Shown: positions 14,552 through 41,462 of the stretch, in pieces
Position numbering within the stretch: position 1 is the stretch's first letter
Layout: every line of letters starts with the position of its first letter
Assembly: GCF_932294415.1 (NCBI RefSeq)
Contig: NC_065537.1
Coordinates: 6,738,349 to 6,802,348, forward strand
Reading direction: 5' to 3'
Length of the DNA stretch: 64,000 bases
Source: Quercus robur
Taxonomy: Eukaryota; Streptophyta; Magnoliopsida; Fagales; Fagaceae
Notes under the pieces: generated by a model
Database searches by the model: none
Told to the model about the DNA's origin: nothing
The model's input: the letters and a program-made list of their open reading frames with translations, nothing else
Program-made: the position numbers and the translations under genes

Positions 14552-14555
14552 CACT

Positions 14556-15150
14556 ACAAAACGCGGGGGCCTTGGGCCGCGTTTTTTAAGCCGCGGCCAT
14601 AGAAAACGCGGCCCAAGGTGCGGCTAAAGCCCCGTTTTCAAAAATGCGGCCCAAGGCGAACCTTAAGGTCGCGTTTTCTACGCGGGGCCATAGACAGGTT
14701 CTGAGGCAGCGTTTTTTTGGGATAAAAACGCGGCCTAAGGACCTCCGCATTTTATTTTTTCTGAAACTTTTTTTTTTTTTTTTTTTGGTCTTCTTTTACT
14801 ATGGCCGCATTTTTAAAATGCGGCCCAAGGTTGAGCCTAAAGCCCCGTTTTAGAAAACGCGGCTTCACAGAGCCTTAAGGTCGCGTTTTGAACGCGGGGC
14901 CATAGACAGGTTCTGAGGCCGCGTTTTTTTAGATAAAAACGCGGCCTAGGGACTGGTCCTGAAGCCGCGCGTTGAAAACGCGGCTCTAATTCTGTTCTGA
15001 GGCCGCGTTTTCTTGATCTAGAAACGCGGCCTAAGGACTTGTTCTGAAGCCGCGTGTTAAAAACGCGGCTCTAGTTCTAGATGGGGCCACGTTTTTGAAA
15101 CGGGGCTTCAGATTTCCCCTATAGCCGCATGTTAAAAATGCGGCTTTAGG
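14556..15150. repeat. 5' subterminal palindromic array of the CACTA element
   Basis: More than a dozen copies of GCCGCGTTTT and its complement AAAACGCGGC are arranged as short hairpins, such as GCCGCGTTTTTTT with ATAAAAACGCGGC. They are separated by phrases such as CTAAGGAC and GACAGGTTCTGAG. In En/Spm the subterminal repeats are binding sites for TNPA, so these are the likely protein-binding sites here. CpG density is far above the surrounding DNA. Confidence 0.9.
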
Positions 15151-15155
15151 GGAAG

Positions 15156-15163
15156 TATAAATA
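15156..15163 (+). promoter_or_regulatory. TATA box of the CACTA element
   Basis: TATAAATA lies immediately inside the 5' subterminal array. In En/Spm a single promoter in this position drives a transcript that is alternatively spliced into the TNPA and TNPD messages. That arrangement is inferred here. Confidence 0.6.
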
Positions 15164-15189
15164 CCAATGTTCACTCTCCAACCCATCTA

Positions 15190-38700: not shown

Positions 38701-39846
38701 GGCTATAGTTGTGGCATATAGTTATGGCCACACTTTTTCAAACGTTACCTCTTACAAAATGACTATTTTATTAAATCTAATATTATAAAGAGTGTTGGTA
38801 CCAAAAACCGCTTGATACAAAGCATTCACATGAAGAAAACAACTCGTCTTTTTGAACGTAATAAACTACATGTTTACGGAATTTGTTTTATGGTTATATT
38901 GCATGTTATGTTCCAAATTCCATTTGCTATGTTTGGTTGTCGCTTCATACCGACATAAATTTTCACTATTGTAATGAGACTGTTGAATATGATGTAGGCA
39001 AAAGAAAACGGCCAAGCAGTGGAGCGTGCAGATGTTTTCATAAAAGCATACAGCAAGAAAGATGGGACTCCTATTAGTAATGAAGTGCGAGACAAGATTG
39101 TAAGCCTATATCATAACCTATTTATTTTCTAATTTGTGCGTGAAATGTTTATAGCAAATAATATGTTATTTGGTTCTTATATGAAAACAGGATAAAATGA
39201 AAGAAATTTTAAACAACGGGGGCAAGCTAGTAGGAGACCATCGCGATGGAATTCTCTGGGCAAAAGATGATGCGTTTGCTCAAGTGATGGGCGAAGAACG
39301 TTCTGGACGTGTCCGTGGGGTCGGTTTTGGACCAACCCCATCAGGAAGAAGTGGGTCCAACCTTCCATGTGTGCTTGGGCCGTCGTCCACTGAAACGGTC
39401 CAACGAATGATTGCATTGGAAAATTCGATGAGGGACCAACTTGCTGACTCAGAGCAAAGGCATCAGCAGCAACTGGCCGAAGCACTGGCCGAAGCAAAGC
39501 GGGAGTCAGATGCACGGCATGAGCAGCAACTAGCCGAAGCACTGGCCGAAGCAAAGCGGGAGTCAAATGCACGGCATGAGCAGCAACTGGCCGAAGCAAT
39601 GCGCGAATCAGAAACACGGCATCAGCAGCAGCTAGACGAAACAAAGCGGGAAATGGCCGATACAAAGCGGAGAATGGATGAAATAGTAGCCTTCTTCCAA
39701 AAGAACATGCCACCATCCAGTTTAACTGGATATTCAGGTAATACAAACTTTGTGTTTTAGTTAATGAAACTTGCGTGTTTATCGCAATATTATGTGCTAC
39801 TAATTTTGTGTATATAATATTTTCAGGATATAGCGCAACATCATAG
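32735..39846 (+). CDS. TNPA-like / Transposase_24 (Ptta/En-Spm) protein of the CACTA element
   Basis: Eight exons are inferred: 32735-32852, 32928-33092, 37061-37371, 37484-about 37708, about 37817-37908, 38998-39099, 39191-39737 and 39827-39846. Exons 1 and 2 encode two related acidic repeats (VEVGEGPSSSR and VQVGQGSSRSR, each followed by EEL.AA). Exons 3-4 carry the Transposase_24 core (RIWALPPNKKLVCGLNGSKQ, FKRWLGTLC, WADEQDYRALVDYWF). Exon 7 has a TNPA-style segment (STETVQRMIALENSM) and a coiled coil of 19-residue HEQQLAEALAEAKRES repeats. In En/Spm such proteins bind the subterminal repeats. The only break I see is one extra A in an 11-A run (37585-37595) that shifts the frame between KLKKK and YPKDALKEEVY. 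It could be real or a homopolymer error. The exon 4 and 5 boundaries are the least certain. Confidence 0.82.
33093..36359. other. TNPA intron 2, 5' part, unassigned
   Basis: AT-rich with an (AT)n tract at 34113-34148. It then becomes a long G/T-rich stretch (about 35040-35720, many TTTTGGG and GGGTTT phrases) that reads like the leader intron of a plant host gene. Frames at 34976-35905 are open but match no family I know. Confidence 0.4.
36360..36662 (+). promoter_or_regulatory. possible captured host promoter and 5'UTR
   Basis: This stretch has the look of a plant core promoter and leader: CT-rich tracts, an (AC)n run at about 36512-36531, C-rich sequence without ATG, and an end at a good donor (TTTGAG|GTAAAA near 36655) followed by T-rich intron. 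It lies within a TNPA intron, so it may be a captured gene start. I could not identify the source gene. Confidence 0.35.
37706..37757. repeat. 16-bp tandem repeat in a TNPA intron
   Basis: CTATTTTCTTGCT is repeated about three times just after the exon 4 donor. It falls in the short intron between inferred exons 4 and 5. Confidence 0.8.
38430..38745. repeat. inner, decayed copy of the CACTA subterminal array
   Basis: Repeats of the form TAGCCGCGTTTTAAACGTGGCTATAG and variants, spaced by 50-60 bases, lie inside a TNPA intron 2 kb before the true right end. They resemble the terminal array, but many CpG sites have become TpG or CpA (GCTGCG, ACGTGGC). They may be the end of an older nested relative or an earlier end of this lineage. 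Confidence 0.75.
39461..39660 (+). repeat. 57-bp coding tandem repeats (coiled coil)
   Basis: Units start at 39461 and 39518 (57 bp each), then 39575 (45 bp) and 39620. They encode H-Q/E-QQLAEALAEAKRES-type helices. The near identity of the first two units suggests a recent slippage duplication inside the TNPA coding region. Confidence 0.85.
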
Positions 39847-40184
39847 TATAATATCTTCGTGGACTCTTCATGGACTCTTCATGTATAATTGTTTGGATAT
39901 TCGGAATATGGTAACTTCGTGGATATTGAAAATATTGTAAACATAATTGTAATATTGTTTGGACTCTTCGTGGACTCTTCATGTATAGTTGTTTGGATAT
40001 TTATTTAGAGAAAATTAATACTTGAGAAAATTCGTACTTGATATTTTGTTGGAATTTTGGGTTGTTATTAGAGATATTTTGGGTTGTTATTGGAATTCTG
40101 GGTTGTTATTGGAATTCTGGGTTGTTTGACAGGTTTGTAAAAATCTGCCCAGCAAAAGGAAATAAAAAGGAAAAAAAAAAAATA

Positions 40185-40815
40185 CTATAGCCACGTTTTT
40201 AAAACGATAAAAACGTGGCTATAGACCAAATTCATAATAAGAATTCGGGGGGCTTAGGCCGCACTTAAAACGTGGCCTAACGTTGTAATCTTGGGCCGCG
40301 TTTAAAACGCGGCCTAAGAGTAGAACCTTAGGCCGCGTTTTAAGCGCGGCCTAAGACTGAACCTTAGGCCACGGTTAAAACGCGGCTTAAATGAGTGTAC
40401 AGTCCGTCACAATGGGAGGTATGGCCGCACTTTTTAAACGCGGCCTAAGGTTGAACCTTGGGCTGCGTTTTAAACGTGGCCTAAGGTTCACCCTTGGGCT
40501 GCGTTTGAAACGCGGCCTAAGGTTGAACCTTGGGCTGCGTTTTAAACGCGGCCTAAGGTTCAATCTTAGGCTGCGTTCAAAACGCGGCCTAAGGTTAAAC
40601 GCGGCCTAAGCCCATACCCTTAGGCCGCGTTTTAAACGGGGCTATAGGGCCCGGGCTTGGGCCGCGGTTAAAAAGTGCGGCCATAGGACCATCAGTCCTA
40701 TAGTCACGGGTTTTAGGCCACATTAGAAACCGTGGCCTAAAAAAACGTGGCTATAGGCTATAGCCACGTTTTTTTGGCATGTAGCCGCGTTTTAAAAACG
40801 CGGCCAGAAGTCCTT
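40185..40815. repeat. 3' subterminal palindromic array of the CACTA element
   Basis: Many GCCGCGTTTT and AAACGCGGCC units (also GGCTGCGTTTTAAACG) are joined by CTAAGGTT, CCTTGGGC and CTATAGG. They run up to GGCCAGAAGTCC just before the terminal TTTTTTTTGTAGTG. The array mirrors 14556-15150 in inverted orientation. It keeps abundant CpG, unlike the inner array at 38430. Confidence 0.9.
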
Positions 40816-41462
40816 TTTTTTGTAGTGCCTTAAGCAATCTATTTGGGTTTTTGTGAAAGCTAAATGTTAGGACATATGTGGATCATCTTAAGAACATATG
40901 TCATTTAGAATTGACTAATCCTTTGACAAAACGCACTTTACTTATAATTGGGTAGATTTATGATGTGTTTAATATTTCAAGGAATAAGAGTTCAAGTCCA
41001 AGTTTTGAAGCCATGCAAATCTGTCCAAGAATCAAGTGAAGAAGTGCTGCTCTTTAAAATGTGAAACTCGACAGATTTAAAATGTGAAACTCGATAGATA
41101 AGCTCGACAGCAGTATCTATCGAGAATTACGAAAATCAATTTTTCAAAACTGTTTTTCACGCATATTCAAGCTATGTGTTTAGGTTTTCTTTTCTCAAAA
41201 CCCTAGACATATATAAGGATTATTTTAAGGGTCGTCTCATATGATGAAAATGTTTTATTCAAGCATATTGTGACCGGAGATAATTTGCCCTAGTTCATCT
41301 TCTCTTGAAAAAGCTGCTGCGTTTGTACGCCGTAGGATTTTGTGACCCAAGAGCTTCTTGATCTTCATATTGATGAACTGAAGAACTTTGCAGCCAACAT
41401 CTTTCTTAAGTTGGTGTGTTAGTCACGTACTGGGATCCATGCATCAATTGGTTAGTCACATA

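Follow-up and report, generated by a model that had tools for sequence, protein, structure and literature searches.

A 26-kb CACTA transposon of Quercus robur with host DNA captured in its left arm and a TNPA-type gene interrupted as assembled

Does a pair of CACTA ends lying some 26 kb apart in the oak genome delimit a single transposon, and could such a transposon still move by itself? We address this question for a 64-kb stretch of Quercus robur DNA (contig NC_065537.1, positions 6,738,349 to 6,802,348 of the forward strand; hereafter the window, with positions counted from its first letter). A first-pass annotation of the window had delimited a complete, large CACTA element of 26.3 kb and proposed it as a good candidate for a recently or still active autonomous copy. 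Our analysis places a CACTA (En/Spm-type) element, intact at both termini, at 14552-40827 (~26 kb; C4:6752900-6779175 in genome coordinates). This element is very probably a complete member of a young, multi-copy family, with a left arm enlarged by successive captures of host DNA and, as assembled, a deficiency in its TNPA-type protein. Both termini and the flanking CCT lie exactly where they had been annotated, and the reported subterminal arrays are borne out by 17 left and 19 right copies of the motif AAACGCGGCC (at most one mismatch). The following features define the boundaries:

14549-14551, no strand: target-site duplication, left copy, CCT (read in the sequence; single CCT at four paralogous empty sites)
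14552-15150, + strand: left end, comprising the 10-bp terminal inverted repeat CACTACAAAA and a subterminal array (17 motif copies; left ends elsewhere in the genome)
40180-40827, + strand: right end, comprising a subterminal array and TTTTGTAGTG (motif copies; ends of other copies)
40828-40830, no strand: target-site duplication, right copy, CCT (read in the sequence; empty sites)

The terminal inverted repeat common to both ends is just 10 bp long and begins with CACTA; CACTACAAAA occurs only once within the window. With up to one mismatch, AAACGCGGCC is present 38 times, two of these in an internal array, against a chance expectation of 0.77 per window derived from shuffles. The subterminal repeats of both arrays run in direct and inverted orientation, and CpG is not depleted in either (observed/expected 1.34 and 1.27). 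An Rfam scan of the window returned no matches at gathering scores.

To recover empty sites, a query made of the two flanks joined over one CCT was run against the genome from which the window comes, which comprises 785.7 Mb in 42 contigs. It located four paralogous sites, all on the same contig, where the sequence continues across the insertion point and CCT stands only once. The doubling of CCT here and its single occurrence there show that the element inserted once, into a duplicated host segment, and generated the target repeat. We further inspected 80 bases per end in 20 other copies, selected because both of their ends could be paired. Exact 3-bp target repeats of 16 kinds flank 18 of them (19 of 21 when the window is counted); the exceptions are one copy with an extrapolated right border, where the GTAGTG end was not seen, and one with a TGA/TGG mismatch. 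Among the 20 copies, four are derivatives that bear both ends and measure 1.0, 6.8, 7.1 and 8.7 kb; between their ends no transposase match was listed among the 39 of 212 candidates scored, a scope that makes all counts from the transposase search lower bounds. The remaining 16 carry the transposase (one only partly) and span 13.9 to 34.8 kb when their end and transposase matches are combined.

These data also bear on the idea that the two ends derive from different elements and that the CCT match is accidental. A 3-bp match arises by chance once in 64 cases, the left arm is long and contains unrelated host DNA, and an extra TTTTGTAGTG at 35637-35646 could in principle mark another terminus; the array motif is absent around that occurrence, and it is the equivalent of 40827 that forms the terminus in other family copies. 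Such a composite is ruled out by the four element-free sites with one CCT, and its probability becomes negligible when the 18 copies with the same two end types and exact target repeats, and the small derivatives that hold both ends, are considered. The locus contains a single complete CACTA element, with both ends from one element; its ends, target repeat and empty sites, together with the conserved transposase described below, support the completeness originally annotated.

The protein-coding capacity resides in two genes, the second of which houses the internal array:

26320-29993, + strand: transposase gene of the TNPD type, four exons, 1132 codons (Pfam, splice test, relatives)
32735-39846, + strand: TNPA-type gene, about eight exons, with a Transposase_24 match and an interrupted frame (exons read by eye)
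38438-38720, + strand: internal array of subterminal-type repeats within a TNPA intron (repeat and motif searches)

The transposase exons (26320-28607, 28701-28958, 29042-29156 and 29256-29993) encode Transpos_assoc, Transposase_21, DUF4218 and DUF4216 domains, with the tnp2 (Transposase_21) match at E 6e-96. Four combinations of nearby GT/AG sites gave an open frame; under the chosen splicing, DUF4218 is matched over positions 1-112 of 114, spanning the first junction. We aligned 27 relatives, 26 from the family (identity down to 89%) and one from a sister family at 82%, and all three GT-AG pairs are intact in 26 of the 27. Seven relatives within the family keep an open frame of 1132 codons and one more keeps 1130, and the sister copy is open over 1133 codons. 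Between the window and the sister copy, exons are 83.4% identical as against 65.9% for introns, and the ratio of nonsynonymous to synonymous substitution rates (dN/dS) is 0.22; relative to the two nearest copies it is 0.52 and 0.75, as expected if copies drift once inserted. The retained GT-AG pairs, the low dN/dS and the exon-intron contrast together indicate that the transposase gene has been under selection in its lineage and that the predicted splice model is sound, and the unbroken four-exon reading of 1132 codons in the first-pass annotation is upheld by the splice test, the Pfam matches and the conserved splice sites. Transposase relatives were found neither in viral contigs nor in prokaryote genome contigs, and no solved structure related to the first exon was detected at E 0.01.

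The TNPA-type gene was reconstructed by eye from consensus splice sites, with exon borders accurate to 1-2 bases (32735-32852, 32930-33093, 37062-37372, 37485-37709, 37817-37909, 38998-39100, 39192-39735 and 39828-39846). One exon matches Transposase_24 (PF03004) at E 1.1e-6, with 29.2 bits relative to a cut-off of 28.7, and the last large exon contains three 57-bp repeats. The internal array lies in one of its introns; there, the ACGTGGC variant is commoner than at the element ends. The element includes the second, TNPA-type protein of a CACTA transposon, as originally annotated, though in a frame that is interrupted: the halves of exon 37485-37709 lie in different frames about an A-run. In 19 other copies the same exon is open in 13 (one of them broken in the adjoining exon), interrupted at the same A-run in five and stopped in one. 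The A-run interruption is common to copies L020 and L022, which are neighbors in the tree, and likewise to L013 and L023, suggesting that such frame changes may be inherited within the family. An alternative intron bypassing the interruption (donor at 37578 to an acceptor before 37662), worked by hand, proved to be out of frame.

As assembled, the window copy does not have both protein genes open, and its autonomy is not supported because the TNPA frame is broken; the copy is probably not self-sufficient, and would be mobile only with TNPA supplied by relatives, some of which have genes open over the tested exons. Relative to its 10 closest relatives, it also carries 16 private substitutions, 10 of them C-to-T or G-to-A changes, and 8 of the 13 coding ones alter the protein. 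The originally proposed status, that of a copy that is itself autonomous and recently or still active, is accordingly unlikely in our judgment. It draws on the intact ends, the exact target repeat, the transposase open over its full length, the existence of a TNPA gene, the undepleted CpG of the arrays and the position of the break in an A-run, a context prone to assembly errors; the broken TNPA frame and the private substitutions oppose it, the latter in a pattern resembling that of a copy silent for some time. We thus retain the reading of a complete element that is TNPA-deficient as assembled.

Recent activity is better attributed to the family, on the basis of near-identical copies with different target repeats, and less so to the window copy. 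The 3.8-kb transposase query recovered at least 40 matches, including the window, with at least 25 other places at 95-99% identity over the query. Further matches comprise at least two at 89%, of which one is partial, a partial match at 99%, at least 10 at 81-82% and a short one at 84%. Copies L016 and L019 differ at only about 2 of 3783 positions (99.95%), lie on different contigs (the near-identical pair at C2:6569176 and C3:5101289) and have different target repeats (TTT and ACG), a combination that points to a very recent jump. Collectively, these comparisons indicate that the family is young and recently mobile. In the transposase tree, the terminal branch of the window copy measures 0.0047 per site. 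With plant substitution rates of some 1.5 to 6.5 per site per billion years, the window copy would, as a rough guess, be about one to three million years old. Judged by its sequence, it is older than the L016/L019 pair and is not the obvious active copy.

The nearest transposase relative of the window is L010 (C5:80554373-80589195), a 34.8-kb copy in which approximately 9.6 kb of different DNA separates the positions equivalent to 31495 and 32194. From about 36.7 kb of the window onward, it is just 91-93% identical to the window, falling to 89% at the right end, and its right part matches in the same way as those of L017, L020 and L022, which points to likely sequence exchange between family copies. 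At the other extreme, L026 (C40:21756260-21770113) is a compact 13.9-kb member with nine stops in its transposase reading and a left arm of only 1.3 kb, from which most of the left arm seems to be dispensable.

The distance from the left end to the transposase is 11.8 kb in the window and 11.7-11.8 kb in three close relatives, as compared to 1.3 kb in the compact member and up to 17.6 kb elsewhere. Much of this arm, about 6.9 kb at 15313-22291, is mostly host DNA from three loci, an origin that, like the TNPA interruption, had been missed in an otherwise confirmed first description of the element. It is organized as follows:

15151-15312, + strand: leader native to the family, with a TATAAATA-like box at 15156-15163; putative promoter (matches in other copies)
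15313-15653, + strand: captured host DNA 1, exon-like pieces and an intron of a gene on C6 (97.7% match)
15728-17847, - strand: first part of captured host DNA 2, which derives from C1:17.87 Mb (99.3% match)
17845-21543, - strand: captured host DNA 3, class III chitinase 5' end and upstream region (C38 cluster match)
21548-22291, - strand: captured host DNA 2, second part (99.3% match)
22296-26319, + strand: left arm common, wholly or partly, to many family copies (mostly 95-99%)

Leader matches in several copies extend to query position ~762 (= 15313), where the first captured piece begins. The donor search scored 36 of 5080 candidates, a list from which the window itself was absent, and its counts are lower bounds. 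Piece 1 corresponds to C6:20304139-20304479 (97.7%), a site that gave no left-end match. The two parts of piece 2 correspond to a single 2.9-kb stretch, C1:17871418-17874329, at 99.3%. Within piece 2, and replacing 45 bp of it, lies the 3.7-kb piece 3, which matches C38:12151875-12155614 at 91% in a BLAST alignment that counts gaps; identity is 95.6% when gaps are excluded and 98.3% in the coding portion. The distal part of this piece (20238-21522) has two further matches on C5 at 86%. The C38 donor gene is one open frame and a member of Glyco_hydro_18. The captured chitinase portion amounts to 99 codons (17845-18141) with 36 bp missing, matches hevamine and retains a 160-nt stretch identical to a host class III chitinase gene. 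Pfam offered no convincing identity for pieces 1 and 2, returning nothing or single weak matches far below the cut-off. An in-frame chimeric protein of leader and host exon was rejected as a conserved product: the frame continues in the nearest copy, but the stretch read there contains no start codon.

A search with the chitinase part, in which all nine candidates were scored, found nine places. Four are element copies, namely the window copy and those at C5:80.55 Mb, C3:32.5 Mb and C40:22.3 Mb. The other five are host sites, of which four lie no more than 40 kb apart on C38 and the fifth on C41. Piece 1 occurs in the same four element copies. In the C5 copy, 4.0 kb of the left arm was read, where pieces 1 and 2 and the beginning of piece 3 follow in the same order as in the window; spacing suggests that piece 2 is also present in the C3 and C40 copies. 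Each of the four copies contains both the chitinase piece and the gene fragment, and each is flanked by a different target repeat, so the element moved after capture. The C40:22.3 Mb copy and the host retain a longer chitinase stretch, which places the 36-bp loss later, in agreement with the transposase tree, where this copy branches first of the four (support 98/94). An intermediate also survives: the copy at C1:2778532-2801231 contains piece 2, its outer borders unchanged and the 45 bp undisturbed, and the chitinase piece is absent, indicating that piece 2 arrived before it. Piece 1 was not seen in that copy in the stretch from the left end to piece 2.

The same observations might suggest that the chitinase block is a nested transposon, as it is a discrete 3.7-kb unit inside piece 2 that is missing from one relative, and its distal part has the two 86% matches on C5. 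Against this, the block replaces 45 bp and shows no target repeat; a single host chitinase locus covers the entire block; every place found is either an element copy or a host site; and microhomology of 3 and 5 bp is present at its two joints, together with a 14-bp tandem duplication (21528-21555). We rejected a nested origin on these grounds, keeping it as a very improbable rival because of the C5 matches, and favor capture of host DNA. Donor loci and the intermediate show that the left arm grew by successive captures, first of 2.9 kb from one locus and then of 3.7 kb from the chitinase locus in place of 45 bp; at some point it also gained the gene fragment from the third locus. A 23-bp tandem duplication (15705-15750) precedes piece 2, and 26 bp of leader flank piece 1 on both sides (15287-15312, 15648-15673). 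The microhomology and short local duplications at the joints suggest capture by template switching during gap repair. By homology, the TNPD-type transposase would cut at the CACTA ends, and the TNPA-type protein would bind the GC-rich subterminal motifs.

Several considerations weigh against this overall interpretation. The empty sites are paralogues and not alleles: two of the four match the left flank over its full 300 bp and the right flank over about 35 bp, in the other two the match covers less of the left flank, and the right flank past its first ~35 bp matches different, repeated places. Element sizes combine separate end and transposase matches, one right end being extrapolated, and the other copies were read at their ends and in selected pieces. 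Template switching is suggested by the joint sequences, within a leader that is already repetitive, and the TNPA interruption, lying in a homopolymer, could be an assembly error. Finally, splicing, activity and mobility are all read from the sequence.

The antisense chitinase piece would lie within a would-be first intron of the transposase transcript. Transcription from the left end could then give rise to antisense transcripts or small RNAs directed at the chitinase cluster of the host, making the four scattered copies mobile regulators of a defense gene; we regard this as a distinctly long shot.

In maize, En/Spm is about 8 kb long and both of its proteins come from one transcript unit. The oak element shares its TNPD/TNPA logic and CACTA ends but is far larger, with its genes in series. 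Further parallels exist in other plants. Tgmt* of soybean is a 20.5-kb, potentially autonomous CACTA (PMC2613891) that resembles the oak element in its large size, tnp2 transposase, second DNA-binding-type function, 3-bp target repeat and complex subterminal motifs. Its terminal inverted repeat is imperfect and 13 bp long, and a single gene of 24 exons, alternatively spliced, includes a TNP1-type domain (PMC2613891), whereas the oak element reads as two genes, the second matching Transposase_24. The Cactavine elements of grapevine are CACTAs of 10-25 kb, with one family at 21-25 kb (PMC2528002); together with the 16 other oak copies of 13.9-34.8 kb, they show that the size of the window element is not exceptional. 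Like it, they have 3-bp target repeats (in several families) and captured pieces of host genes, including a PPR piece in opposite orientation, though the Cactavine-5 PPR capture is downstream of the transposase (PMC2528002) and those of the oak element follow its left array and precede the transposase. Chenopodium CACTAs have the same domain set (TAD, Transposase_21, DUF4218, DUF4216 and, in some, Transposase_24) and gene-fragment captures in the 5' region upstream of the transposase, those described measuring 80 to ~200 bp (PMC8978399); the oak element has taken up ~6.9 kb from three loci, and an intermediate stage survives. Pack-CACTA elements, known in Arabidopsis, rice and maize, similarly hold captured coding DNA between CACTA ends, but Pack-TYPE elements are non-autonomous by definition (PMC8903248); the oak element contains captured host coding DNA and a transposase predicted to be open, and so departs from them in the latter respect. 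No paper on an oak CACTA family was among those listed in literature searches, and a search on the capture of chitinase genes by CACTA elements brought up work on pine genomes.

Large gene-capturing CACTAs are hence already known in other plants, and the oak element adds another. Its value lies in an unusually readable record of host DNA uptake by a transposase-bearing CACTA, comprising donor loci at ~98-99% (over gap-free coding or near-coding pieces), an intermediate, joints and four daughter copies, within a family of large CACTAs that has been very recently mobile and includes relatives with genes open over the tested exons.

Beyond the element, a duplicated block (6647-10190 and 48774-51881, 83-96% identical) flanks it on both sides, the first copy containing a palindromic insert (6972-7435) that is absent from the second. 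A Copia-type gag fragment (42854-43405) lies 2 kb to the right of the element. An L-type lectin receptor kinase occupies one frame at 45464-47488, with an in-frame stop (46361-46363) between its lectin and kinase parts, and is perhaps a pseudogene. Farther right, a reading frame with a NAC (NAM) domain is present on the - strand at 54681-55229.

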